Positions 48,924 through 61,028 of a stretch of 64,000 nucleotides of DNA are shown here, one piece after another. Each line of letters opens with the position of its first letter. Position 1 is the stretch's first letter. The notes beneath the pieces are model-generated. The model saw only the letters and a program-made list of their open reading frames with translations, searched no databases and was not told where the DNA came from. A program made the position numbers and the translations under genes. This stretch comes from Paractinoplanes bogorensis (GTDB lineage Bacteria > Actinomycetota > Actinomycetes > Mycobacteriales > Micromonosporaceae), in contig NZ_JAHKKG010000007.1 of NCBI RefSeq assembly GCF_018829635.1, positions 1 through 64,000 on the forward strand, given 5' to 3'.

Positions 48924-50084
48924 ATGCCTTTCTCGCTGTTTGTCCTCGCCCTGGCCGTGTTCGCCATGGGCACCTCGGAGTTCATGCTCGCCGGTCTGCT
49001 GCCGGACATCGCCGCCGATCTGGGCGTGTCGGTGGGTGCGGCCGGTTCCCTCAATTCCGCGTACGCCCTCGGCATGCTCGCCGGCGCACCCCTGATGGCG
49101 GCCCTCGCCCGGAGCTGGCCCGGCCGCCGCAGCCTGCTCGGATTCGTCCTGACGTTCGTGGCCGCGCACGTCGCCGGGGCGGTGACCACGAGCTTCCCGG
49201 TGCTGCTGGTGACCCGGGTGGTCGCGGCCGTGGCCAACGCCGGCTTCCTGGCCGTGGCCCTGACCGTCGCCGTGGGCCTGGTCGCCGCCGAACGCAAGGG
49301 GCGCGCGCTGGCCGTGCTGCTGTCCGGCACCACCGTGGCCACCATCGCCGGAGTGCCGGCCGGATCGGTGATCGGCACGTTGTCCGGCTGGCGGGCCACC
49401 TTCTGGTCGATCGCCGCGCTCGGTCTTCTCGCCGTGGCGGGACTCACCCGCGCGATGCCTGCGCCGGGCGGGTCGCGGCCTGATCTGCGTACGGAAATCG
49501 GTCTGCTCGGAAAGCCGCGCCTGCTGCTGGTCATGGTGCTGGGAGCGTTGGTCAACGCGGGCACGTTCGGCGCCTTCACGTTCCTGGCCCCGGTCGTGAC
49601 CGGCACGGCGGGGCTGGGCGAGTGGTGGGTCGCCGTCGTGCTGATGCTCTTCGGGGCCGGCTCGCTGGTCGGCGTCACGGTCGCCGGGCGCCTGTCCGAC
49701 CGGCGGCCGGGAACGGTCGTCGCCGTCGGCGGCCCGCTGCTGGCCGGCGGCTGGGTGGCCCTGGCGCTGCTGGCCGGGCACCCGGTCGCGCTGCTGATCC
49801 TGGTGTTCACGCAGGGGACGCTGTCGTTTGCGCTGGGCAGCACGCTGATCACGCGGGTGCTGTACGAGGCCGCCGCCGCGCCGACGATGGCCGGTTCCTA
49901 TGCGACGGCGGCCCTCAACGTCGGTGCGGCGGCGGGCCCGCTGATCGCCGCGGGTGCGCTCGGCGCCGGGAACGCCGGTCCGTTCTGGGTCGGCGCGGGC
50001 CTGGTGACGGCGGCCCTGATCGTGGCCGCCCTCCGTCCGCGCGCCCTTCAGGCCAGGGTCTGCTCGGCGGCCAGCGTGGCGTAG
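48924..50084 (+). CDS. MFS transporter, DHA1-type drug efflux
   Basis: The protein has 386 residues and twelve predicted helices. AMGTSEFMLAGLLPDIAADL and LAGAPLMAALARSW are typical of the Cmx/CraA-like efflux group. GGAGT lies 6 nt before the ATG. The last 37 bp overlap the 3' end of the convergent ABC exporter gene, and the C-terminal residues (LQARVCSAAS) are the antisense reading of that gene, suggesting a lost original stop. Confidence 0.9.
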   Translation: MPFSLFVLALAVFAMGTSEFMLAGLLPDIAADLGVSVGAAGSLNSAYALGMLAGAPLMAALARSWPGRRSLLGFVLTFVAAHVAGAVTTSFPVLLVTRVVAAVANAGFLAVALTVAVGLVAAERKGRALAVLLSGTTVATIAGVPAGSVIGTLSGWRATFWSIAALGLLAVAGLTRAMPAPGGSRPDLRTEIGLLGKPRLLLVMVLGALVNAGTFGAFTFLAPVVTGTAGLGEWWVAVVLMLFGAGSLVGVTVAGRLSDRRPGTVVAVGGPLLAGGWVALALLAGHPVALLILVFTQGTLSFALGSTLITRVLYEAAAAPTMAGSYATAALNVGAAAGPLIAAGALGAGNAGPFWVGAGLVTAALIVAALRPRALQARVCSAASVA

Positions 50085-51772
50085 AGGGAGTCCGTGCGGA
50101 CCAGGTCGGGGTGGGAGCCGGCGGAACGGGCGGTTCCGTTGTCCAGGACCACGATCTGGTCGGCGGCCAGCACAGTGGACAGCCGGTGGGCCACCACGAT
50201 GACGGTGGTCCGGCGGGAGATCTCCTGGATCACCTCGCGGAGCGCGGCCTCGTTGGTGGCGTCCAGCTGTGAGGTCACCTCGTCGAGCAGGAGCAGCCGG
50301 GGCTGGCGGAGCAGGGCGCGGGCCACCGCGATCCGCTGGCGTTCGCCGCCGGAGAGGGACAGGCCCCGGTGCCGGACCGGCGCGTCCAGGTCGCCGCCGA
50401 GACGGTCGAGCAGGGGTTCGAGCCGGGTCGTCCGCAGCACCTCGTGGATCTGCTCGTCGGAGACGCCCGGTGCGGCGTACGTGATGTTCTCCCGCAGGGT
50501 TCCGGCCAGCACCGAGACGTCCTGTTCGACGTAGCCGATCGCGGCCCGCAAGTCGCGCAGCGGCCAGTCGGTCAGCGGCCGCCCGTCGACCAGGATGCGG
50601 CCGTGCTGCGGCTCGTGGAAGCGCTCGATCAGGGCGAGCACCGTGGTCTTGCCCGAGCCGGACGGGCCGACCAGCGCGGTCAGCCCACCCGCGGGCACGG
50701 TAAGCGTGAGGTCGCTCAGGGCCGGCTCGTCCCGGTCCGGATAGCGGAAGCCGACCCCCTCGAACACGACCGTCGCGGGCGGACCGCTGGCCATCTCTCC
50801 TCTATCGAAAAGGAGAGGCTCGGTCGGCAGCGCGTCGATCTCGGCGATCCGGGTCAGGGCGGCCCGCCCGACCTGCAGGTAGGTGCCGGCGCCGATGAGC
50901 TGCATCACCGGCTGGCTCAGGTAGGCCACGTACAGCAGGAACGCGACCAGCGCCGAGACCGGCATCGCCCCGCCGGCCACCCGGGCGCCGCCGACCCCGA
51001 GGACGACCAGGAACGCGATCTGGATGGCCAGGCCGGCGCTGGTTCCGGCGACCGAGCCCCAACGGGCCAGGCTCACCCCTTGCCGGTACGCCGTCACGGC
51101 CGCCCCGTCGATCCGGGCCACCTCGGCCACCTCGGCTCCGGAGGCCTTCATGGTGGTGAAGGCGCCCAGCGCCCGCTCCAGGGCGGCGCCGATCTCGCCG
51201 ACCGATTCCTGCGAGCGCAGCGCCGCGTCCCGGATGCGCGGCATCAGCAACTTCATGATCAGCACCAGCAGCAGCCCGACGACCACGGTCACCACGAGCA
51301 GGGTGAGGTCGACGATCGCCATCAGCACCAGCGCGCCGAGCAGCATGACGGCACCGGTGAACAGGTCGATCAGCGACTGGCTGGCGACCTGCCGCAGCAG
51401 CATGGTGTCGCCGGCCACCCGGGCCAGCAGGTCACCCGGAGCCTGCCGCTGCAGGGCGGGCACGGTGAGCCGGAGCAGGTGCCGGACCAGGCCGCGCCGC
51501 CCGTCCAGGGTGACCGCCTCGGCGGTGCGCAGGATCAGATAGTTGCCCAGGCCGAGCAGCACCGCGGCGACCAGGACGAGTCCGGTCAGCCAGGCCAGCG
51601 GCCGGCCCACGCCCAGCCCGTCGGTGAGGTGGTCGATCAGCGCCTTGGCCGCCAGCGGCTGGGCCAGTCCGAGCACGCTCGAGGCGAGCAGCAGCGTGGC
51701 CGCGGCCAGGAACGGTCCGCGGTGCGGCCGGACGTACCCGACGATCATGCGCATCCAGTGGCGGTCGCTCAT
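50048..51772 (-). CDS. ABC exporter (fused permease-ATPase)
   Basis: The protein has 574 residues. The six-helix type I exporter domain (1-310) is followed by the ATPase: Walker A GPSGSGKTTV, Q-loop VEQDVSVLAGTL, signature LSLSGGERQRIAVARAL and Walker B LLLLDEVTSQLD. There is no N-terminal C39 peptidase domain, so a peptide substrate would need separate processing. It is the last gene of the peptide-type operon; its ATG overlaps the methyltransferase stop (ATGA). It is the best candidate for product export. Confidence 0.92.
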   Translation of the reverse strand: MSDRHWMRMIVGYVRPHRGPFLAAATLLLASSVLGLAQPLAAKALIDHLTDGLGVGRPLAWLTGLVLVAAVLLGLGNYLILRTAEAVTLDGRRGLVRHLLRLTVPALQRQAPGDLLARVAGDTMLLRQVASQSLIDLFTGAVMLLGALVLMAIVDLTLLVVTVVVGLLLVLIMKLLMPRIRDAALRSQESVGEIGAALERALGAFTTMKASGAEVAEVARIDGAAVTAYRQGVSLARWGSVAGTSAGLAIQIAFLVVLGVGGARVAGGAMPVSALVAFLLYVAYLSQPVMQLIGAGTYLQVGRAALTRIAEIDALPTEPLLFDRGEMASGPPATVVFEGVGFRYPDRDEPALSDLTLTVPAGGLTALVGPSGSGKTTVLALIERFHEPQHGRILVDGRPLTDWPLRDLRAAIGYVEQDVSVLAGTLRENITYAAPGVSDEQIHEVLRTTRLEPLLDRLGGDLDAPVRHRGLSLSGGERQRIAVARALLRQPRLLLLDEVTSQLDATNEAALREVIQEISRRTTVIVVAHRLSTVLAADQIVVLDNGTARSAGSHPDLVRTDSLYATLAAEQTLA

Positions 51773-52530
51773 CACTCGCCCCGATGGCGGTAGACGCTGA
51801 CGTACATCGGTTCCACACCGGTGAACTCGTTGCCGAACCAGTCGCTGTGCCGCGCCGCGAGGATCAGACCCGCATTTTCCGCGTACGCGTCGACCTCCTC
51901 GGCGGTCGTCAACCGGCTCACCTCCGACGCGATCCGGGAGCGGCCGTCCTCGATCCACAGATGCGTCAGCTGCCAGATCCGGTTGGCCACGTCGATCGTC
52001 GAGTAGGACAGCAGCCCGGTGTCGCGGCCCGGGTAGGGGATCAGGTACGAGTCCCGGGCCCGGCCCTGGTTGATCACGTGCACCGCGAAGTCCGGGTTGT
52101 GCGTCTCGACCACGAGGGTGCCGCCGGGGTCCAGCCGAGCCGCGGCGGCCGTGATCGTCTGCTGCTGCTCGGCCGGGTCCAGCAGCATCGACAAGGTGCC
52201 GCAGATGCAATAGACCAGCCCGTACGAACGGTGGTCGGCCCAGTCGCGGATGTCGCCGTCGACCGGGGTGACCGGGCGCGGCTGGTCCTTCAGCGCGGCC
52301 CGGAGCACGTCGAGCATCTCGGGAGAGGAGTCGACGCCGACGATCTCGCCGACCCGGTCGGCCAGCGGCAGCGCGATCCGCCCGGTGCCGACGCCGAGTT
52401 CCAGAGTGGATCGACCGTCGCCGGGGTGCAGGTCGGCGAGGTAGGCGACCGCCGGTTCCGCGGCCGGCCCGCCGGGGAAGATCCGGTCGTAGAAGTCGGC
52501 GAACTGACGGCCGTAACCGAGGTCAGTCAT
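51772..52530 (-). CDS. class I SAM-dependent methyltransferase
   Basis: The protein has 252 residues. LELGVGTGRIALPLAD is motif I, IVGVDSSPEML motif II, and VTPVDGDIRDW and YCICGTLSMLLD follow as in the UbiE/small-molecule group. The target is unknown. It lies inside the peptide-type operon with 8-nt and 4-nt overlaps to its neighbours, so it may modify the peptide product or a cofactor. Confidence 0.9.
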   Translation of the reverse strand: MTDLGYGRQFADFYDRIFPGGPAAEPAVAYLADLHPGDGRSTLELGVGTGRIALPLADRVGEIVGVDSSPEMLDVLRAALKDQPRPVTPVDGDIRDWADHRSYGLVYCICGTLSMLLDPAEQQQTITAAAARLDPGGTLVVETHNPDFAVHVINQGRARDSYLIPYPGRDTGLLSYSTIDVANRIWQLTHLWIEDGRSRIASEVSRLTTAEEVDAYAENAGLILAARHSDWFGNEFTGVEPMYVSVYRHRGE

Positions 52531-53089
52531 GGACAGCGTCCTCCAGCGGTACGAACGGGGACACCAGCAGATAATCCGGCTTGTTCGATTCGTCGTAGCC
52601 GGTGCTGCGGGCGATCACGAACTGGAACCCCCGGGGCCGCTCGGACCCGGGATATTGCGCCCGTACGGCGTGCTCGACGACGTCGCGCATCACCTCGTAC
52701 GGCGTGGTGGCGGTGATGTCGACCCCGGGCCGGCCGAGGTAGGCGATCAGGTCGGCGCAGATGTCGAAGATCGCCTTGTCCTGCCGGCGCTCCGGGAACC
52801 AGACCATCTGCCGCCACCGCCGTTGCGGGATGACGATCGTCTCGGACCACCGGGTCTGCTCGCCGTCCGCGGTCAGCACCCGGTGCAGCAGGTGGAAATC
52901 GTGCTGGGCCGGCTCGGGGGCGAAGAACCGCCAGTTGCCGATCAGCAGCCCGGGCACGTCGTACTTGCGGAACCGGTCGAAGACCTGCTGCGGGTGCTGG
53001 CTGAGCACCGTCACCCCGAACCACCCGACCAGGCCGGCGGTGATCGCGGTGGTCAGGGGGCGCAGGTCGGCGCCGACCCGGCGGCTCAC
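52523..53089 (-). CDS. SdpA-like partner protein
   Basis: The protein has 188 residues. One membrane helix (about 12-28, TAITAGLVGWFGVTVL) is followed by KYDVPGLLIGNWRFFAPEPA and a soluble domain. The NW-FFAPEP segment after a single helix is the layout of SdpA and of the DUF-type partners that accompany HTTM/SdpB proteins; the assignment rests on layout and neighbour, not on close identity. The GTG start overlaps the fusion gene (GTGA). The last 8 bp overlap the methyltransferase gene. Confidence 0.6.
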   Translation of the reverse strand: MSRRVGADLRPLTTAITAGLVGWFGVTVLSQHPQQVFDRFRKYDVPGLLIGNWRFFAPEPAQHDFHLLHRVLTADGEQTRWSETIVIPQRRWRQMVWFPERRQDKAIFDICADLIAYLGRPGVDITATTPYEVMRDVVEHAVRAQYPGSERPRGFQFVIARSTGYDESNKPDYLLVSPFVPLEDAVHD

Positions 53090-54897
53090 CGGTCCACCCC
53101 GGTGACGTCGTCGACGAAGGCCGTCAGGATCTTGGCCACCTCGGCCGCCCGGGCCTCGTCGGTGAGGATGCCGTCGTGGTCGGCGCCCTCGATCACGTGC
53201 CGCTCGGCCCGGGGCGCCGAAGCGGCGAACTCGTCGTGCAGGTCGGCCTGGACGGCGTCGGCGCGCGCGGTGGTGCCGGCCGTCACCACCACCAGCGGAG
53301 CGTCGATCCGGGGCAGTCCGACCGACTCGTCCTCGAAGCGCTCCCGCACCACCTTCCACTCCCGCCGGGCGGCCGACCACAGCTCAGGGTCGCGATATTG
53401 AGCGAGGGCAAGCGGCCGTACGGGCTCGGGCAGCCGATCCACCCAGGCCGCGCGGGGCAGCAGCGACCCGAGCCCGGCCCGCAGCGATCCCGGCATGATG
53501 GACAGGATGCTGGTCAGCACCCGGCCGCCCTCGGCTTGGCGCAGCGAACGACGCAGCTCGGCGGGGTGACTGGAGTCGATCAGGGCGACCCCGCTGACCT
53601 GACGACCCAGCCGCTCGGCGGCGAGCAGGGCCAGATAGCCGCCGAGCGAGTGGCCGACCAGGATCACCGGGCGCTCGCCGGCCACGTGCCGGGCCAGGTC
53701 GACGAGATCGTCCACCATGGCCTCGAAGCGGTATTCGCCGGAACCCCGGTAGCGGCTGGACCCGTAACCGGCCCGCTGATAGGTCACCGTCGTGAAGCGC
53801 GTGCCCAGCGCCCCGCCGATCCGTTCCCAGTGCTCCCCGGTGGCGGCCAGCCCGCTCTCCAGCAGCACCACCGGTCCGCCGTTGTCGGCGCCGGGGTAGC
53901 GGTAGGAGAGGACGTTGCCCGCGGCCGTGGTGAAGGTGCGCTCGTCGCCGCGGCCCCGCTCGATCATCCGGCGCCGGCGGATCCGGGCCACCTGCCCGGC
54001 GGCGAACAGGACGAGCCCGGCCGCGGCGGCCACTGCGGGCAGCGTGTCGTCGCGGCGGACCCCGTTCGCGTCGGCGGTCCGCTCCCGGGGGCGGGTGGTG
54101 TAGGTGATCGCCGGGTAGGTCGACGTGAACGCCCAGAAGAACCGGCCCAGCCCCATCACCCGTGCGTTGACCAGATGGAACGTGCCCGCCGTGGCCAGCA
54201 GATAGGGCGCGGGACGGCCCCGGGCGGCGTACGCGAGCGGGAAGGCGCACTCCATGGCCAGCACCCCGTGGGCGGCGAGCCGGGTCAGCCGGGGATAGCG
54301 GCTGAGCAGCTGCCAGACCTGCGGATCGCCGTAGGTGAAGGTGCGGGTGATGCCGGGCAGGGCACGCCCGCTGCGCCAGGTGTCGCTGGGCAGTTTGGCC
54401 CAGCCGGAGACCGTGTAGGACAGCACCGACTGCAGTGAGATGAACCAGAGTGCGGCGTCGACGATCGCGGGGCGGCGGTGACCGGCCCGGGCGATCGTGG
54501 TGAGCGCCTGCACGAGGAACGAGACCTGGTCGGCGCCGTCGCTGCCGTAGAGGTGCTGGGCGTGCAGCGCGGCCTGGCTGCCGGTGAGCACGGCGTTGGC
54601 GGCGACCCGCTGCCGGTGGGTGAGCGGCATCCAGAGCGCGACCGCGGCCAGCGCCCGGCTCGCGTGCAGGGCCGTGACCATCCGGTCGCCGCTGGTCAGG
54701 TCGAGCACCCGGGTCAGGCGCGGGGCGTGCTCGGCGAACGTACGCCGGTTCACGGCCCAGTTGTTCGCACCGCCCTGCCGCCGGTCCCGGCCACGGGTCA
54801 GGTATTCCAGACTGGCCAACAGGTGCGTGACCGAGCTGATCCGTTCGGTCCAGTTCAGCACGGCGGAGCGGTCGAGGGCGCGGAGGGGGTTGGGCAT
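53086..54897 (-). CDS. SdpB/HTTM-like membrane domain fused to an alpha/beta hydrolase
   Basis: The protein has 603 residues. Residues 1-305 are polytopic and contain YGSDGADQVSFLVQAL (about 117-132) and YTVSGWAKLPSDTWRSG (161-177), the pattern of HTTM proteins such as SdpB and vitamin-K-dependent carboxylase. Residues 320-600 are a canonical hydrolase: LLESGLAATGEHW (oxyanion loop), VGHSLGGYLALLA with Ser417, and EGADHDGIL with the catalytic His. AGGAAGAG lies 8 nt before the ATG. The fusion suggests that peptide maturation and an ester/peptide-cleaving step work in one membrane protein; no such fusion is familiar to me. Confidence 0.75.
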   Translation of the reverse strand: MPNPLRALDRSAVLNWTERISSVTHLLASLEYLTRGRDRRQGGANNWAVNRRTFAEHAPRLTRVLDLTSGDRMVTALHASRALAAVALWMPLTHRQRVAANAVLTGSQAALHAQHLYGSDGADQVSFLVQALTTIARAGHRRPAIVDAALWFISLQSVLSYTVSGWAKLPSDTWRSGRALPGITRTFTYGDPQVWQLLSRYPRLTRLAAHGVLAMECAFPLAYAARGRPAPYLLATAGTFHLVNARVMGLGRFFWAFTSTYPAITYTTRPRERTADANGVRRDDTLPAVAAAAGLVLFAAGQVARIRRRRMIERGRGDERTFTTAAGNVLSYRYPGADNGGPVVLLESGLAATGEHWERIGGALGTRFTTVTYQRAGYGSSRYRGSGEYRFEAMVDDLVDLARHVAGERPVILVGHSLGGYLALLAAERLGRQVSGVALIDSSHPAELRRSLRQAEGGRVLTSILSIMPGSLRAGLGSLLPRAAWVDRLPEPVRPLALAQYRDPELWSAARREWKVVRERFEDESVGLPRIDAPLVVVTAGTTARADAVQADLHDEFAASAPRAERHVIEGADHDGILTDEARAAEVAKILTAFVDDVTGVDR

Positions 54898-54925
54898 GGT
54901 CGCGGCTCTTCCTGGAGAAGTTTGG

Positions 54926-54958
54926 GGGCCGGTGTGCCAGGTCCCGGCACACCGGCCC
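54926..54958 (-). promoter_or_regulatory. 13-bp hairpin between precursor genes and processing genes (attenuator-like)
   Basis: A perfect stem (54926-54938 with 54946-54958, 7-nt loop) lies 11 nt after the second peptide gene. No T-run follows it on the minus strand, so it would slow transcription or protect the 3' end of the peptide mRNA rather than stop it fully. Confidence 0.65.
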
Positions 54959-54969
54959 GGTACGCCCGG

Positions 54970-55209
54970 CTAGAGCTGGCTGTTCTCGGCCGGGGGACGG
55001 GGACCACCGAAATTGCGTCCGGCGGCGTAACCGGCGGCGAAGAGTCCGGCGACCGAACCGACCGCGGCGACGCCGGCCGCCACCGCGACGAACGTCGCCG
55101 GAGTGGCCAGGACGGGCATGCCCCCGACCTGGTCACACGCCTCGTCGGCGTCGATCCGGACGGTGGCCAGAACGGGATCCGCGTTCACCCTGGTGGCGAT
55201 GACGGACAT
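54970..55209 (-). CDS. candidate peptide precursor 2
   Basis: The protein has 79 residues. Residues 1-30 form a hydrophilic, acidic region ending in Gly29-Gly30. Then PVLATP (32-37), a Gly/Ala/Val-rich hydrophobic helix (38-64) with AAGYAAGRN, and a polar Pro-rich tail. One Cys (25) lies in the leader. A second PVLAT occurs at 12-16. AGGAGGTG, a near-perfect ribosome site, is 5 nt before the ATG, unlike most genes here. It is paralogous to the gene 20 nt upstream. I infer a bacteriocin-like prepeptide; a small membrane subunit is the alternative. Confidence 0.65.
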   Translation of the reverse strand: MSVIATRVNADPVLATVRIDADEACDQVGGMPVLATPATFVAVAAGVAAVGSVAGLFAAGYAAGRNFGGPRPPAENSQL

Positions 55210-55229
55210 GGGGCACCTCCTGATCGGCT

Positions 55230-55454
55230 TTACTTCGGAACCGGGTGCGTGCCCTCGGCCATGTTGCGGGCGATTCCCACCATGTAGCCGGCGTGGAACG
55301 CCGCGGCACCGACGGCGACGCCGAGCGCCACCGCCGTCGGAGTGGCGAGCACCGGGGTGAGCCCGGCCAGCCCCCGTACGGTCCGGTCCTGCTCGCTGAG
55401 TGAGCCGAACGCGTCCGCCGAGACGTCGTTGATGTGATCGATAAGTGCGGTCAT
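55230..55454 (-). CDS. candidate peptide precursor 1
   Basis: The protein has 74 residues and no Cys. A hydrophilic N-terminal part (1-31, SLSEQDRTVRGLAG at its end) precedes PVLATP (34-39), a hydrophobic Gly-zipper-like helix (40-62) with HAGYMVGIARN, and a short tail EGTHPVPK. GGGAGGTG lies 6 nt before the ATG. It is the first gene of the operon, downstream of the divergent dyad. PVLATP, GY-x2-G and RN align with precursor 2, so the two arose by duplication. Confidence 0.65.
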   Translation of the reverse strand: MTALIDHINDVSADAFGSLSEQDRTVRGLAGLTPVLATPTAVALGVAVGAAAFHAGYMVGIARNMAEGTHPVPK

Positions 55455-55476
55455 CTATTTCACCTCCCGCAAACTT

Positions 55477-55523
55477 TTTAGCGGCTGTGAGTCTCGGGGC
55501 ACAAGAGATTCACGTCAGCTAAA
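55477..55523. promoter_or_regulatory. nested dyad operator in the XRE / peptide-gene divergent promoter
   Basis: Centred at 55500: outer arms TTTAGC (55477-55482) and GCTAAA (55518-55523), inner arms GTGAGTCTC (55487-55495) and GAGATTCAC (55505-55513, one mismatch). It overlaps TTGTGC/TAAAAA boxes that could drive the peptide genes. The XRE protein encoded next door is the natural ligand. TAGCGGCT (55479) is also repeated inverted at 55530. Confidence 0.7.
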
Positions 55524-55592
55524 TTCTGGAGCCGCTACGATGGCCGGGTAGATCAGCTCGGCCGGCCGGGAGTAGTGGAGGAGGGCGCCACA

Positions 55593-56051
55593 ATGGACGA
55601 ATCACCCCACGGCCCCCTCGCCGTGAAGGTCAACCGGCTCTTCGAGGTGATCCGGCGCCCCGACCGCACGCCCTATCGCAACGAGGAAGTGGCCACGGCC
55701 TGCCGCGAGGCGACCGGCGAGAGCTTCTCCACCACGTACCTGTGGCAGCTGCGCAACGGCAAGCGCACCAACCCGACCAAGCGGCATCTGGAGGCTCTGG
55801 CCCAGTTCTTCCAGGTCCCCGCGGCGTATTTCTTCGACGACGAGCAGAGCACGCGCATCGCCGAGGAGCTCGAGCTGCTCGGCGCGCTGCGCGACAACGC
55901 GGTCCGGCAGATCGCGCTGCGGGCGGTCACGCTCTCGCCCGAGGGGCTCGACACGATCAGCGACATGATCGACGTCATCGGGCGGCGAGAGGCCCGCCAG
56001 GCCGGCCTCTCGCGTGACGCTGACGGCGGGGCCGGGCCCGATGGCGGTTGA
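55593..56051 (+). CDS. XRE family transcriptional regulator
   Basis: The protein has 152 residues. The HTH region (about 8-72) includes NEEVATACREATGESFSTTYLWQLRNGKRTNP in the form typical of actinobacterial XRE proteins (core STTYLWQLRNGKR), then FQVPAAYFFDDEQ. The C-terminal half is helical. GGAGGAGGG lies 8 nt before the ATG. It overlaps the ImmA-like gene by 11 nt; ImmA-type proteases cleave such repressors in mobile elements, so this pair may form a switch for the divergent peptide genes. Confidence 0.87.
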   Translation: MDESPHGPLAVKVNRLFEVIRRPDRTPYRNEEVATACREATGESFSTTYLWQLRNGKRTNPTKRHLEALAQFFQVPAAYFFDDEQSTRIAEELELLGALRDNAVRQIALRAVTLSPEGLDTISDMIDVIGRREARQAGLSRDADGGAGPDGG

Positions 56052-56553
56052 GCGCGACATGTGGCGCCGGTGCCGCCGGATCGTCGACTCGCTGCCGATC
56101 CCGGCGCCGTTCGACCCGGCCCGGTTCGTCGACGCGCTGGCCCGCCGGCGCGGTCGCCCGGTCGAGCTGGTGCCGATGCCTGGCGGCATGAAACAGTGCG
56201 GCGCGCTGGTCGCGACCGACCGGGCCGACTACCTCTTCTACGCCGCCAGCACGACCCGGCTGCACCAGGAGCACATCCTGTTGCACGAGGTCGGGCACCT
56301 GCTCTGCGGCCACACCGACGACCGCACCCTCACCGCCCTGCCGGCCATGCTGCTGCCCAACCTGTCCGACGACCTGGTCCGCCGGGTGCTCGGCCGCTCC
56401 GACTACTCGGTCGCCCAGGAACAGGAGGCCGAGCTGATCGCCTCGATGATCGCGCAGCGGGCCCGCCGCGGCCCGGCCGCCGGCACCGGTCCGGTCGACC
56501 CCGAGGTGGCCGACGGCCTGGCCCGGCTCGGCTCGATCTTCGACACCGGCTGA
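56041..56553 (+). CDS. ImmA/IrrE-type zinc metalloprotease domain protein
   Basis: The protein has 170 residues. HILLHEVGHLLCGH holds the HExxH zinc site (His82-Glu83, His86), and EQEAELIASMIAQRA downstream supplies the usual third-ligand helix. The layout matches ImmA/IrrE proteins that cleave or act with XRE repressors. ATG 56041 is used; GTG 56014 is possible. Confidence 0.82.
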   Translation: MAVERDMWRRCRRIVDSLPIPAPFDPARFVDALARRRGRPVELVPMPGGMKQCGALVATDRADYLFYAASTTRLHQEHILLHEVGHLLCGHTDDRTLTALPAMLLPNLSDDLVRRVLGRSDYSVAQEQEAELIASMIAQRARRGPAAGTGPVDPEVADGLARLGSIFDTG

Positions 56554-56567
56554 CCCCGGCGGGCGCG

Positions 56568-57752
56568 GTGCTGATCTGGCTCAACATCCTGGCCCTGCCC
56601 TGTGCCGCCCTGGTCGCGGCGTACAAGCTGATCCCGGTGAACGGCCGGCGCCCGGCCGAGGGCACCCGTTACCTCTCCGCCTTCTTCCTCTGCATCGGCC
56701 TCGGACTGGCCGTGATGTCGCATCCGGTGCTGACCGCGATCAGCCAGGTCGAGCCGCTGCCCAACCTGGGCCGGCTGCTCGGCAACTCGCTGGAGATGCT
56801 GGCCGCCTACTTCCTCGGCGCGCTCGGCCACAGCATCGCCCGTCCGTCCGGCACCCGGCGCTGGCTCCGCCGGTATGCCGTCCTGCTGATCGGCGCGATC
56901 ACGCTGATGCTGGTGCTGCTGGCCACCGCCGGCACCACGTTCACCCTCAACTACGTCAACGCCTACTCGCGGAACCCGGCGGTCGTCGTCTACCTGCTGG
57001 TCTTTTTCGGCTACATCATGCTGTGCCTGGTCACGTTCATCGCCAACGTGGGCGGCTACGTGCGGCACCTGGCCCCCGGCGTGTTGCGGGTCGGGCTGAG
57101 TCTGGTGGTCGCGGGCGCCGCGCTGGGCATCGTGTGGGCCGGCTGGTCCGGGTTGCGACCGGTGGTCACGCTCACCACCGGCCGATCGCTGGCCACCACC
57201 CTGCCGGTCGGCACCACGCTGGGCGCGATCTGCCTGCTGCTGTGGCTGATCGGGGCGACCCTGACCGCCTGGGGTGACCGGATCACCGCCCCGCTGCGCT
57301 GGTGGCGCGCGCTGCGCGAACTGCGCCGCATCCAGCCACTCTGGCGGGCGCTGCGGACGGCGGTGCCGCAGGTCGCCCTCGACACCGGCGGCGGCTGGCC
57401 GTCGGCCGGGGTGGAGTTCGCGCTCTACCGGCGGGTGATCGAGGTCCGCGACGCCCAGCTGACCCTGCGCCCCTATGCGCATCCCGACGTCTCCGAATGG
57501 CTGGGCCCGGCCGCCGATCCGGCCACGCTGGAGGCGGCGGTGATCGCGTCGGCGCTGGTCGGGCACGCCCGGGGCCGCAACTACGGCACCGAGCACCCGT
57601 TCCAGGAGCTGGACGCCTCACTGGCCTCGGAGAGCGCCTGGCTGTCCGAGGTGTCCCGCCAGTTCACCGGCTCGTCCGAGGTGCAGCGAATCCGCCGCCT
57701 GGCCGACACGTCCCTGGGTGGTGACGGGTCACAAGGCGGCTCGGCGGGATGA
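56568..57752 (+). CDS. MAB_1171c-type seven-helix membrane protein
   Basis: The protein has 394 residues. About seven helices fill residues 1-235 (LIWLNILALPCAALVAAYKL first). A soluble C-terminal domain follows with LRRIQPLWRALRTAVPQV and EFALYRRVIEVRDAQLTLRPY, the typical end of the MAB_1171c family of putative transporters commonly found after XRE genes. It may act as sensor or immunity protein of the peptide locus. The GTG starts 14 nt after the ImmA-like stop. Confidence 0.8.
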   Translation: MLIWLNILALPCAALVAAYKLIPVNGRRPAEGTRYLSAFFLCIGLGLAVMSHPVLTAISQVEPLPNLGRLLGNSLEMLAAYFLGALGHSIARPSGTRRWLRRYAVLLIGAITLMLVLLATAGTTFTLNYVNAYSRNPAVVVYLLVFFGYIMLCLVTFIANVGGYVRHLAPGVLRVGLSLVVAGAALGIVWAGWSGLRPVVTLTTGRSLATTLPVGTTLGAICLLLWLIGATLTAWGDRITAPLRWWRALRELRRIQPLWRALRTAVPQVALDTGGGWPSAGVEFALYRRVIEVRDAQLTLRPYAHPDVSEWLGPAADPATLEAAVIASALVGHARGRNYGTEHPFQELDASLASESAWLSEVSRQFTGSSEVQRIRRLADTSLGGDGSQGGSAG

Positions 57753-57758
57753 CCGGGG

Positions 57759-58361
57759 TCAGCGCTGAGCCTCCCAGCGAGGCGTGAAGGTGATGGACTG
57801 GGCCTGGGCGGCGTCGTTGCTCTGGACGATCCACTCGAGTTTCCAGGTTCGGCTGGTGCCGGTGGTGGCCGACCAGGTGCCGACGCCGTTCGCCCAGGAG
57901 CCAGTGGCGGCGATGAAGGCGTCGAGGGTCTTGGTGCCGTCCTTCATGCCGGTCGTGTTGTAGAGGGTGCTGGTGGAGCTGAAGTCGCTGCAGTCGGTGT
58001 TGTTGCCGGTGCCGACCTGCAGGCGAAACACCATGTACGAGCCGAGCGCGCCGGTCGCCGGGGGTATGTACATCTTCACCGTGGCCGGCAGCGAACCGGT
58101 GTAGGTCGTGATCACGCACGCGAGGGCGGTGCTGCCGGGGATGACATTCGTCGCCGTGAAGAACTGGCTGCCCGAGGCCGCGGTGCCGGTGAGCACCACC
58201 GTGCCGGTGTAGAGGGTGTTGCCGTTGTTCGAGGTCTGCGCGGTGAACCGCGCGTCGGCCGGGCGCAGTTGAGTGACCGTGACGGCGAGTGCCGCGGCCA
58301 CGGCGTACCAGCGCAGACGTCGCCAGAGGTGGCGCCGCGGCCGGCGGGTATGTCTGCCCAC
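57759..58361 (-). CDS. secreted TasA/CalY-like protein with SipW-class signal
   Basis: The protein has 200 residues. A basic N-terminus and hydrophobic helix (about 18-31) are followed by DARFTAQTSNNGNTLYTGT, the region just after cleavage in SipW-dependent proteins such as TasA/CalY. The rest is beta-rich with two Cys. It ends 6 nt from the convergent membrane gene. It should be processed by the peptidase at 59165 and exposed or assembled on the surface. Confidence 0.78.
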   Translation of the reverse strand: MGRHTRRPRRHLWRRLRWYAVAAALAVTVTQLRPADARFTAQTSNNGNTLYTGTVVLTGTAASGSQFFTATNVIPGSTALACVITTYTGSLPATVKMYIPPATGALGSYMVFRLQVGTGNNTDCSDFSSTSTLYNTTGMKDGTKTLDAFIAATGSWANGVGTWSATTGTSRTWKLEWIVQSNDAAQAQSITFTPRWEAQR

Positions 58362-58419
58362 AGCTCCGGCCTCCTCACCTCACCTGTTCGGCAGGTTGGG
58401 AATCGGGCTGAACGCGGAA

Positions 58420-58450
58420 CGGCTCCGGCGGCTGGAAGCCACCGGAGCCG
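58420..58450 (-). terminator. hairpin between the two TasA-like genes
   Basis: GGCTCCGG with CCGGAGCC plus an inner GGCT/AGCC make a stem of 12 pairs with one mismatch and a GGA loop, after the 58473 gene. It may limit read-through into 57759. Confidence 0.7.
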
Positions 58451-58472
58451 ATCTCACTGGTCCGTTTGGTGA

Positions 58473-59168
58473 TTAGCGCTGCGCCTCCCACGTGACGCCG
58501 AACTTGACGCCGTCACCCTGCACCGAGTCGGGCGCGGTGGACGGGAGCGCATAGGTGAAGCGGAAGACGCGCCACTGGTTCTGGCCGATGGTCGGGGCCG
58601 ACAGGGTCGTGCCGGCGTAGTTCTGGTTGTTCTTGATGAGGGTCCGGAGGCTGGTCGCCGCCGTCACGTTGCTGAAGGTGCCGACGCCGGACGGCGCGCA
58701 GTTGCCGTAGCCGGGGTCGGTGGCCAGGTCGGCGCTGTTCACCTCGATCTGCAGGGTGGTGTAGTCGTCCATCTCCGACGCGGCGCTGTCGGCCCAGTCG
58801 ACGTAGGCGGCGCCGGCGGCGCTCTCCTGCGCCTTGTTGGTGCCGGTGATGGGGAAGTACATCTTGATCGCGGTGGGCGTCAGCGAACCGGTGTAGGTGA
58901 CGGCCATACACACCGTTCCCGTGGCGCCCGGCGCCATGGCCGACGGGGTGAACATCGCGGTCGAACCGCCGTCGTTGTCCGCGATGGCGACCGTACCGGC
59001 GCCCAGGGTGTTGCCGTCGTTGCTGGTGGTCGCGGTGAACGTCGCGTGCGACGACTGCCACACGACGCCCGAACACGCGATCAGGCCGACGACCGCGGCA
59101 ACCCCGCGACGAGCGCGGTTGCTCTTGACGGCCTTGGTGATGATCCCCCGCATATGTTTCCCCTTCAT
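58473..59168 (-). CDS. secreted TasA/CalY-like protein
   Basis: The protein has 231 residues. The signal region RGVAAVVGLIACSGVVWQSS is followed by HATFTATTSNDGNTLGAGT and AIADNDGGS, the family motif. The body is beta-rich with paired Cys. The ATG overlaps the peptidase stop (ATGA) and has GGGGG 4 nt upstream; a second ATG at 59153 with AAGGGG is also good. Co-expression with its peptidase is built in by the overlap. Confidence 0.82.
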   Translation of the reverse strand: MKGKHMRGIITKAVKSNRARRGVAAVVGLIACSGVVWQSSHATFTATTSNDGNTLGAGTVAIADNDGGSTAMFTPSAMAPGATGTVCMAVTYTGSLTPTAIKMYFPITGTNKAQESAAGAAYVDWADSAASEMDDYTTLQIEVNSADLATDPGYGNCAPSGVGTFSNVTAATSLRTLIKNNQNYAGTTLSAPTIGQNQWRVFRFTYALPSTAPDSVQGDGVKFGVTWEAQR

Positions 59169-59944
59169 CGATCCCCCATGGAAACCGCTGCGGCGGTCTC
59201 AGGGATCCAGTTCGGTCGAGGGGCGGGGGCCATCGAGTCGCGAATCAGTGCAGCTGAGTTGCCAATCGGTGCACGGCGCAGGCGGTAGGAGTCGGCGTCC
59301 ACGGGACCGTCGAGAACCCCGTGAGCGACCGGGACACGCCGGACGCGGTACGGGTCGGCGTCCACCGGCCCGTCCGACAGGCGCCGCGGGGCGCTGGGCG
59401 GCGGCGTGGGCGGCTCGTTCCGGCGTGGCTGCCAGAGCAGCAGGGTGAGCAGCAGGATGGCGGCCGCGACGACCGGCACGTAACGCCCCTGCCGGATCCA
59501 GAGGTAGGGCAGCCCGATGTACGGGATGCGGATCCGCGGAATGCCGACCAGGTGGTCCATCGGCACCGGCGTGCTGTCGGCGGTCGGGTTGGCGTCGCCC
59601 TTGGTGATCATGCGGCCGGCCTCGTCCAGGCGGATCACCCGGTGCATGAGCAGCTCACCGGGATGCGCGGGGTCGTTGACCAGGACGACCGTGCCGACCT
59701 CGACGTGCGTCGGCGGCGGGGCGGCGGCGGAGATGACGTCGCCGGGCCGGATCCTGGGCATCATCGAACCGGAGACCACAACCGTGGACTTCCACCCCAG
59801 CAGCACCGGGGCCATCGACACCAGCAGCAGTCCCACGATGCACGCGAGGGCCGCGTCCCGGGCGTCGAAGAGCAGCACGCGACCCTCGGAACGAGCGCGG
59901 AGCAGCAGCGCCCGTCCGTCCCTGGGTGCACAGTGCTTGCCCAC
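59165..59944 (-). CDS. SipW/ER-type signal peptidase I
   Basis: The protein has 259 residues. A helix (about 30-52) precedes VVVSGSMMPRIRPGD with Ser60. MHRVIRL puts His101 where bacterial type I enzymes have Lys, and TKGDANPTAD supplies the Asp, so this is the Ser-His (SipW/archaeal) class. A second helix is at about 155-172. The tail contains two copies of DGPVDADxYRxRR. It should cleave the neighbouring TasA-like proteins. GTG start with AGGGGG 10 nt upstream. Confidence 0.9.
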   Translation of the reverse strand: MGKHCAPRDGRALLLRARSEGRVLLFDARDAALACIVGLLLVSMAPVLLGWKSTVVVSGSMMPRIRPGDVISAAAPPPTHVEVGTVVLVNDPAHPGELLMHRVIRLDEAGRMITKGDANPTADSTPVPMDHLVGIPRIRIPYIGLPYLWIRQGRYVPVVAAAILLLTLLLWQPRRNEPPTPPPSAPRRLSDGPVDADPYRVRRVPVAHGVLDGPVDADSYRLRRAPIGNSAALIRDSMAPAPRPNWIPETAAAVSMGDR

Positions 59945-60074
59945 GGCGCGCTAACCCCCTGTCATCCGTTTGTCACATCGGCGTACCGGTGAGACGACTG
60001 AGCCCGACTCCTTATCCGGGCCACCCGCGGGACCGATCAAACGGCGGTCAGCACACCCGGGGGAGGAGAAAAGC

Positions 60075-61028
60075 ATGGCGGCCGTACGGCGTTCACGTGT
60101 GACAGCCGTCCTGATGACCCTCGCGGCGTCGGGGGTGCTGCTGTCGGCCGCGCTCGGTGGCAACAGCACCGAGATGGCCCGGATGTCGCTCGCCGGAAGC
60201 GCCGGAAGCGCCGGAAGCGAAGGCACGCCCGCGATGTTCAGCGCACGCCAGCTCGTTCCCGGCCACGCGGTCAGCAACTGCCTGCCGATCGTCAACGGCA
60301 ACACCGCCGACCGCGGGCCCGTACGCCTGACCGCCGCCGATCTGACCGGTCCGCTCGTCGCCGGCCTGCACATCCGGGTCGAGCTCGGCACCGGCGGAGC
60401 TTTCGGCAACTGCACCGGATTCACCGGCACCACCGTGTTCGACGGGCCGCTGACCGGCCTGGCCGCGAGCGGAGTCTCCACCGGCTGGGTGCCGGCCGCG
60501 CGGGAGACCCGCACCTATCGGCTCACGGTAGAGGTCGCCGACGACAACGCACTCCAGCACAGCCGCGCCACCGGAACGCTCACCTGGCTGCGCACCCCGG
60601 GCACAGCCATACCGAGCACGCCGAGCACACCGGCCACACCAGATACATCGGGTACTCCGGCTACCACGGATCCCAGGATCAACGCCGACGGTCAGACCCA
60701 GGCTTCCGTACGCCGTACGAACGCGCCCTTCTTCGACGCCGCATCGACGGGCAACGCGCCACAACCGAACGCGGCGCGATCCGGCGGTCCGGCTGGAGGA
60801 AGCGCGGTCCCGGCGCCCACCGGCTGGCACGCGGCGGCGAAGACGGCGGCCGACACGATCGACGTCGCCATGAAGCTGGTCGGCGCCACCGCCCGCCATC
60901 CCTGGTACGTGCTGTCCTCGCTGGCCGTCATGTGGCTGTTCCTGTTCGCCGCCGACCGCTCCGAGAAGCGTGACCCCAAGCGTGCCTATCTGCGGTTTCC
61001 CCCCGACCCCGAGGACGGCCGAAAGTGA
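60075..61028 (+). CDS. secreted or surface protein with C-terminal membrane anchor
   Basis: The protein has 317 residues. A signal segment (about 8-25) is followed by a beta-rich domain (LTGPLVAGLHIRVELGTG, FGNCTGFTGTTVF) similar in style to the TasA-like neighbours, a Thr/Pro/Ser-rich stalk, and a C-terminal membrane helix (YVLSSLAVMWLFLFAA) with a basic cytosolic end. It could tether the fibre proteins to the cell. GGAGGAG lies 7-8 nt before the ATG. First gene of a plus-strand operon divergent from the signal peptidase. Confidence 0.7.
   Translation: MAAVRRSRVTAVLMTLAASGVLLSAALGGNSTEMARMSLAGSAGSAGSEGTPAMFSARQLVPGHAVSNCLPIVNGNTADRGPVRLTAADLTGPLVAGLHIRVELGTGGAFGNCTGFTGTTVFDGPLTGLAASGVSTGWVPAARETRTYRLTVEVADDNALQHSRATGTLTWLRTPGTAIPSTPSTPATPDTSGTPATTDPRINADGQTQASVRRTNAPFFDAASTGNAPQPNAARSGGPAGGSAVPAPTGWHAAAKTAADTIDVAMKLVGATARHPWYVLSSLAVMWLFLFAADRSEKRDPKRAYLRFPPDPEDGRK

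Follow-up and report, generated by a model that had tools for sequence, protein, structure and literature searches.

A probable linaridin-type biosynthesis cluster with paired precursor genes in Paractinoplanes bogorensis

What kind of secreted peptide is encoded by a compact gene cluster in the first 64,000 nucleotides of contig NZ_JAHKKG010000007.1 of Paractinoplanes bogorensis? The window, by which we mean this whole 64,000-nucleotide stretch, belongs to a genome of 10.19 Mb. On its minus strand, two small precursor genes, A and B, are followed by a hairpin and by genes for an HTTM-hydrolase fusion, a LinL-like protein, a methyltransferase, and an ATP-binding cassette (ABC) exporter; in this last group of four genes (H, L, M, and T), the end of each gene overlaps the start of the next. 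A trio encoding an EspR-like regulator, an M78/ImmA-type protease, and a MAB_1171c-family membrane protein diverges from them on the plus strand. The initial annotation had described two small peptide genes with strong ribosome sites, a hairpin, four overlapping genes, the divergent trio, and a dyad; all of these are present at their places, and the genes look real. We consider it very probable that the locus is a linaridin-type cluster for a ribosomally synthesized and post-translationally modified peptide (RiPP), belonging to a branch with paired precursors. The earlier interpretation of a secreted, bacteriocin-like peptide locus with HTTM-superfamily processing proteins and regulatory genes of its own stands, whereas its assignment to an Sdp-like kind does not.

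Assignment to the linaridin class

According to the available part of one report (PMC9927463), linaridin clusters are recognized by LinL and typically contain HTTM and alpha/beta hydrolase genes, together with an ABC transporter, often a methyltransferase, and no protease gene; the precursors are cut at a PxxxTP motif, and 561 such clusters have been predicted. An excerpt of a Brevibacterium paper (PMC5719810) lists cypH, cypL, cypD, and cypT among the genes of linaridin clusters. The window encodes a homologue of LinL, the protein common to the 41 clusters compiled below. Both precursors carry PVLATP, the HTTM and alpha/beta hydrolase domains are present as a fusion, and LinM, which is usual in linaridin clusters and absent in corynaridin, is represented by a methyltransferase that resembles YunM and CypM in its sequence. 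The supposition that the locus is of an undescribed kind is not supported. PVLATP corresponds to the PxxxTP motif of linaridins, the methyltransferase is homologous to YunM and CypM, and the fusion and the LinL-like protein have their homologues at the equivalent positions of a cypemycin-type cluster. The combination of a methyltransferase with a hydrolase fusion, which had seemed unfamiliar, turned out to be usual linaridin content, in which HTTM, alpha/beta hydrolase, and methyltransferase proteins occur together.

The cypemycin-type (type A) cluster L113 (5459-11556) served as the anchor of this comparison. Its precursor contains PAMVTP and ends in STICLVC, its decarboxylase matched CypD (6jdd) with an E value of 7.5e-94, and its methyltransferase matched CypM (7wzg) with an E value of 4.9e-123. 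It also encodes a fused HTTM-hydrolase and LinL, and its gene order is that of the window apart from CypD. We take the fusion and the LinL-position protein of L113 to be CypH and CypL, judging from their positions and from the cyp gene names. The window fusion aligned with the fused protein of L113 across both domains (29% over 556 amino acids, E 1e-31), the LinL-like protein with the LinL-position protein (36% over 89 residues, E 2e-13), and the two methyltransferases with each other (E 2e-17). The hydrolase part of the window fusion is clear from Pfam (Abhydrolase_6, E 2.2e-19). The LinL-like protein matched no NCBIfam model, and when the LinL and HTTM alignments were searched as profiles against the PDB, only chance-level matches came up (best E 0.023 and 0.11). 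The closest solved relative of the window methyltransferase is YunM (PDB 7wzf; E 2.5e-69, residues 2-247). The cypemycin N-terminal methyltransferase (PDB 7wzg) matched with an E value of 1.1e-13, and CcbJ, which is presumably not a RiPP enzyme, stands between the two (E 1.4e-23).

Paired precursors and related clusters

Both precursor genes are preceded by strong ribosome sites (GGGAGGTG and AGGAGGTG) and have orthologues in five other genomes, in which PVLATP is kept. The ratio of nonsynonymous to synonymous substitution rates (dN/dS) was 0.18-0.51 for pepA and 0.21-0.48 for pepB (15 pairs each), and both look like real genes that are under purifying selection. When the two peptides were shuffled with their composition preserved, a PxxxTP motif arose by chance in 1.3% and 1.9% of the shuffles. 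Among 56 small open reading frames (ORFs) of the window that are preceded by a Shine-Dalgarno sequence, four contained P...TP, and two of those four are precursors A and B.

Related clusters were collected from several searches. An HTTM-alignment scan of named genomes gave 27 loci (Micromonospora, Sphaerimonospora, Streptomyces, Kitasatospora, Phytohabitans, Goekera, and Embleya). Within the family, 33 of 150 genomes had an HTTM match, mostly a weak one; within the class, a LinL match was found in 30 of 394 genomes, and 18 of these places were examined with their flanks. This left 41 distinct clusters with HTTM, hydrolase, and LinL after removal of three duplicates (L036, L037, and L038 duplicate L051, L062, and L064, and each locus was counted once). 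L061, without a LinL match, and the HTTM/LinL pairs without a hydrolase match (L039-L041, L108, L111, L112, and L114-L116) were excluded. At least two PxxxTP precursors were present in 24 clusters and, on closer look, in L047, L060, L100, and L102 (where the start codon is uncertain), which makes 28 of the 41 clusters and 28 of the 32 in the window's branch of a concatenated HTTM and LinL tree (45 loci, 453 columns). In this tree, L113 groups with seven clusters of another layout, namely hydrolase, LinL, then HTTM (support 0.99; ultrafast bootstrap, UFBoot, 100).

In the six-member clade of the window (the window, L035, and L042-L045), mean identity was 77% among A precursors, 74% among B precursors, and 47% between A and B of the same cluster; the corresponding values for a Streptomyces/Micromonospora clade were 80%, 78%, and 51% (nine chosen clusters; L053, L055, and L060 left out). 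Since A and B form separate lineages in two clades, the pair appears to be old and to have been kept together. The same genome carries a second, diverged cluster (L009:6135-13088; G000:C37) with two precursors that contain PVMATP; its HTTM protein and hydrolase are encoded separately, and it also has LinL, a methyltransferase, a small hydrophobic ORF, an ABC exporter, and a flavoenzyme. No description of two-precursor linaridins was found in the literature searched; the 561-cluster survey was not looked up, and key papers (Claesen and Bibb 2010, 2011; Xue 2023; the SdpAB paper) lay outside the search. The paired-precursor branch may therefore already be contained in that survey.

The predicted cores were compared in a set of 62 compiled precursors, which were picked by eye among PxxxTP ORFs with Arg/Pro-rich frames dropped (one set was filtered by rule); the four additional precursors from the search of L047, L060, L100, and L102 are not among them. 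In the window, the predicted cores follow PVL/ and begin with ATP; Ala is the first core residue in 53 of the 62, which fits the dimethylation of N-terminal Ala by CypM. Core A of the window contains three Thr, core B two Thr and two Ser, and neither contains Cys; the Thr share is 8% and 4%, respectively, versus 18% in the L113 core, and the precursors end in K and L. In 57 cores of the branch, Ala, Gly, and Val make up 42-83%, and Thr averages 8.1% with a range of 2.6-16.2%, so that a low Thr content is a tendency and no rule; five cores from outside the branch have 10-19% Thr. The spacing GxxxG was counted 33 times versus 21.2 expected (sd 3.9; 2 of 2000 shuffles as high) in 22 hand-picked representatives, in which G....G was also somewhat high (27 versus 20.3, a count reached by 105 of 2000 shuffles) and G..G was low (13 versus 22.0). 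Over all cores, the GxxxG count of 95 versus 47.6 is inflated by relatedness. Elsewhere, three precursors of one cluster (L107:10336-10967) have the C-terminal end THPTLPHA in common and differ in the rest of the core.

Regulatory genes and alternative explanations

Each of the six members of the window clade has genes for the EspR-like regulator, the ImmA-type protease, and the MAB_1171c-family protein together with the cluster, divergently in five and downstream in L045; in the stretches examined, the other 35 clusters did not show the full trio. The derepression switch through ImmA that the initial annotation envisaged would act here on an EspR-like protein (nearest solved relative EspR, 3qf3), which is not a classical phage-type repressor. 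A half-site resembling TTAGCTGAGATGAA lies 5' of precursor A in all six members with 0-2 mismatches; the full dyad is present in four (the window, L035, L044, and L045) and was not found in L042, while L043 shows an unrelated palindrome. The trio is not specific to linaridins, because 26 of 61 genomes in the family contain PF20182, and the genome of the window has another EspR-like/ImmA/MAB_1171c set, differently arranged, with no linaridin genes in the 14 kb examined (L117:5793-7742; G000:C35). The hairpin between the precursor and enzyme genes has a folding energy of -41.1 kcal/mol (z -4.18), which none of 200 shuffles equalled. All six clade members have a hairpin in this gap, with a stem of 12-17 bp whose sequence differs between several of them; in four members z reaches no more than -1.95 to -2.51, and for L044 and L045 the fold covered just a part of the gap. 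The hairpin is likely to be a partial terminator that gives an excess of precursor mRNA.

Table 1. Features of the predicted linaridin-type locus and the evidence on which each is based
Feature	Position	Strand	Description and basis
Precursor peptide A	55230..55454	-	74 aa; leader, PVL/ATP, and core ATPTAVALGVAVGAAAFHAGYMVGIARNMAEGTHPVPK, cut site by analogy; ORF, ribosome-binding site, orthologues, PxxxTP
Precursor peptide B	54970..55209	-	79 aa; leader, PVL/ATP, and core ATPATFVAVAAGVAAVGSVAGLFAAGYAAGRNFGGPRPPAENSQL, cut site by analogy; basis as for A
Hairpin in the gap between precursor and enzyme genes	54926..54958	-	Fold z; hairpin in same gap in 6/6 clade members
LinH/CypH-like fusion, HTTM membrane domain and alpha/beta hydrolase	53086..54897	-	603 aa; Pfam, L113 match
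LinL/CypL-like protein, WRFFAPxP motif ("SdpA-like" in the initial annotation)	52523..53089	-	188 aa; L113 match, alignment
CypM/YunM-like peptide N-terminal methyltransferase (predicted)	51772..52530	-	252 aa; PDB profile matches
ABC exporter, LinT-like permease-ATPase fusion	50048..51772	-	574 aa from ATG (575 from GTG one codon earlier); Pfam ABC_membrane and ABC_tran
Operator-like dyad 5' of precursor A	55477..55523	.	Half-site like TTAGCTGAGATGAA; outer span about 45-47 bp; inverted repeat
EspR-like DNA-binding regulator	55593..56051	+	PDB EspR 3qf3, E 3.5e-24
ImmA/IrrE-type (M78) metalloprotease, HEVGH	56041..56553	+	Pfam Peptidase_M78 E 0.0038, below cut-off; HEVGH in translation
MAB_1171c-family (DUF6545) membrane protein	56568..57752	+	NF042915 E 3.2e-70, above cut-off; PF20182 E 5.1e-33

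The ABC exporter showed no peptidase domain match in Pfam. Beyond the trio, at 57759-60514 of the window, a weak signal-peptidase-like ORF (59168-59944; Peptidase_S26, E 7.5e-4, below cut-off) stands among three ORFs without a Pfam match, an arrangement that recalls SipW/TasA-type operons.

Several observations weigh against the linaridin-type assignment. The Pfam matches of the HTTM domain (E 4.6e-4) and of the ImmA-type protease to M78 (E 0.0038) are below the cut-off. Linaridins are defined by dehydrobutyrine, and the cores of the window, whose product is a prediction from the genes, contain only three and two Thr. The overlapping genes leave no room for CypD, and neither a Flavoprotein match nor a short-chain dehydrogenase/reductase (SDR) was found with Pfam among the nine cluster ORFs and ten flanking ORFs; the latter were hand-picked as likely genes, seven of them had no Pfam match, and other flanking ORFs were not scanned. 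Type A linaridins are marked by the CypD decarboxylase and a C-terminal Cys, and type B linaridins by an SDR-type oxidoreductase. Because no CypD or SDR was found among the scanned ORFs and a C-terminal Cys is absent, the cluster fits neither described type. The 32-cluster branch of the window is sister to the L113 clade with moderate support (FastTree 0.62, UFBoot 87), that is, it is not nested in the cypemycin type, and 4 of its 32 clusters showed fewer than two precursors. Furthermore, an Amino_oxidase/NAD_binding_8 flavoenzyme lies in or beside 31 of the 41 clusters (for example, L042:14099-15523 and L009:11634-13088), mostly last in the gene order (not in L106) and with a partial match only in L066. 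It is present in four of the six window-clade members and missing from the window and L044, so that the cluster of the window may be incomplete.

This last point leads to the idea of an incomplete linaridin-type cluster that has lost the flavoenzyme of its relatives and no longer makes an active product. We regard this as unlikely, since the remaining genes are open and overlapping, the precursors appear to be under purifying selection, 10 of the 41 clusters are without the flavoenzyme, and the enzyme may be supplied by the second cluster of this genome, where it is present. It is likewise unlikely that the peptides are signals instead of antimicrobials and are sensed through the trio. A membrane protein and a protease are indeed coupled to the regulator together with the cluster throughout the window clade; however, the full trio was not seen with the other clusters, the family of the membrane protein also occurs apart from such clusters, and corynaridin, a characterized linaridin, is bactericidal according to the available part of its report (PMC9927463). 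A daptide-like cluster was considered because the best NCBIfam model of the methyltransferase is the daptide methyltransferase NF041820 (E 5.5e-23). The score of 81.7 is, however, below the cut-off of 175, and YunM is a far better match; the nine cluster and ten flanking ORFs showed neither an aminotransferase nor a decarboxylating oxidoreductase, and the precursors end in K and L, whereas daptides start from a C-terminal Thr as stated in the accessible part of PMC10036551. The daptide explanation, which we consider extremely improbable, was rejected, since the methyltransferase match is below the cut-off, YunM is much closer, and the other daptide features were not found among the scanned ORFs.

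A true Sdp-type killing-peptide system, in which HTTM and SdpA-like proteins mature an SdpC-like toxin, was the kind of system that the initial annotation had in mind. The resemblance to SdpAB has a basis at the superfamily level: the profile alignment of LinL with SdpA-like proteins of other genomes, which adjoin HTTM proteins, gave an hhalign probability of 99.9 (E 4.4e-31, 168 columns), and the HTTM neighbours in L112 and L041 matched SdpB with E values of 1.5e-6, below the cut-off, and 0.015. Membership was not borne out. No window protein matched an NCBIfam Sdp model at E 0.1 (the SdpB model is in the library, and an SdpA model was not seen there), and none of six SdpA-like proteins of other genomes matched an SdpA-named model. 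The absence of an SdpC homologue, already recorded in the initial annotation, was confirmed in the Pfam and NCBIfam scans; the precursors are of the PxxxTP type, and the fusion, the methyltransferase, and LinL match the cypemycin-type cluster. We therefore consider an Sdp-type system highly improbable and rejected it, as no Sdp model matched in the window. The remote link between LinL and SdpA-like proteins and between HTTM proteins and SdpB suggests that two peptide-maturation systems have a common origin, which is a lead and not a sign of membership. In eight other loci (L039, L040, L041, L111, L112, and L114-L116), an SdpA-like gene stands beside an HTTM gene with no hydrolase match; these may be remote actinobacterial Sdp-type systems, although the NCBIfam SdpB cut-off was unreached where they were scanned.

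Proposed mechanism and comparison with known systems

If the locus is a linaridin-type cluster, its expression and the maturation of its product may be outlined as follows. The EspR-like protein would bind the dyad and control the precursor promoter, while the ImmA-type protease and the membrane protein would gate the EspR-like protein; the hairpin would hold precursor mRNA above enzyme mRNA. The activity that determines the linaridin family is reportedly ascribed, in the title of a 2023 paper by Xue, to two membrane-associated proteins. The available part of PMC10373908 describes grmL as essential and its product as a potential epimerase; the same source and an excerpt of PMC11285071 state that CypM makes N,N-dimethyl-alanine. 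On the basis of these reports and that title, the membrane-bound LinH/LinL pair may act on the hydrophobic core by epimerizing it, by dehydrating its few Thr, or both, activities that have been attributed to the grisemycin and cypemycin homologues. Once the leader is cut at PVL/ATP, the methyltransferase would dimethylate the N-terminal Ala exposed in this way. Two peptides, about 38 and 45 residues long, would leave the cell through the ABC protein and would most likely act jointly on the membranes of competing bacteria. The product predicted from the genes is thus most likely a pair of N-dimethylated, membrane-active peptides.

GxxxG helix-packing motifs are a trait of two-peptide bacteriocins. 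Because the GxxxG enrichment of the cores resembles these motifs, a two-peptide mode of action comes into consideration, and the two separately conserved precursor lineages per cluster are also suggestive of it, but only suggestive. We tentatively put forward a bolder reading, which is possible and at present doubtful: a third linaridin branch of obligate two-peptide bacteriocins, with Thr-poor, GxxxG-rich helices made by one LinH/LinL/LinM set, in which the membrane pair would mainly epimerize or only process residues without forming dehydrobutyrine, under an EspR-ImmA-MAB_1171c switch. Paired, separately conserved precursors point to a two-peptide mode of action, of which no description was found in the linaridin literature searched. 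Clusters with few-Thr cores could allow the activities of LinH/LinL, namely epimerization, dehydration, and perhaps leader cutting, to be told apart. Should the product turn out to be an ordinary linaridin, the locus would add only modestly to the hundreds of predicted clusters.

Among known systems, the cypemycin/grisemycin clusters (type A; anchor L113) share with the window the PxxxTP precursor, the fused HTTM-hydrolase, LinL, a CypM-type methyltransferase, ABC genes, and the gene order apart from CypD. In contrast, the window has no CypD or C-terminal Cys, and it has two precursors, Ala/Gly/Val-rich cores with less Thr, and an additional regulatory trio. Corynaridin (type B), as described in the available part of PMC9927463, has LinL, HTTM, alpha/beta hydrolase, an ABC transporter, PxxxTP, and no CypD in common with the window. 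It differs in having an SDR, no methyltransferase, and one precursor with seven Thr, whereas the window has a methyltransferase, two precursors, and no SDR among the scanned ORFs. YunM of Streptomyces yunnanensis (PDB 7wzf; PMC12719100, seen in part), the closest solved relative of the methyltransferase, was compared as a single protein only. SDP (SdpABC) of Bacillus shares the HTTM superfamily and the remote resemblance between LinL and SdpA-like proteins, and differs in its other accessory genes and in that no Sdp model matched in the window. Class IIb two-peptide bacteriocins likewise consist of two co-encoded hydrophobic peptides with GxxxG, whereas the locus described here combines such a pair with linaridin-type enzymes and the PxxxTP motif.

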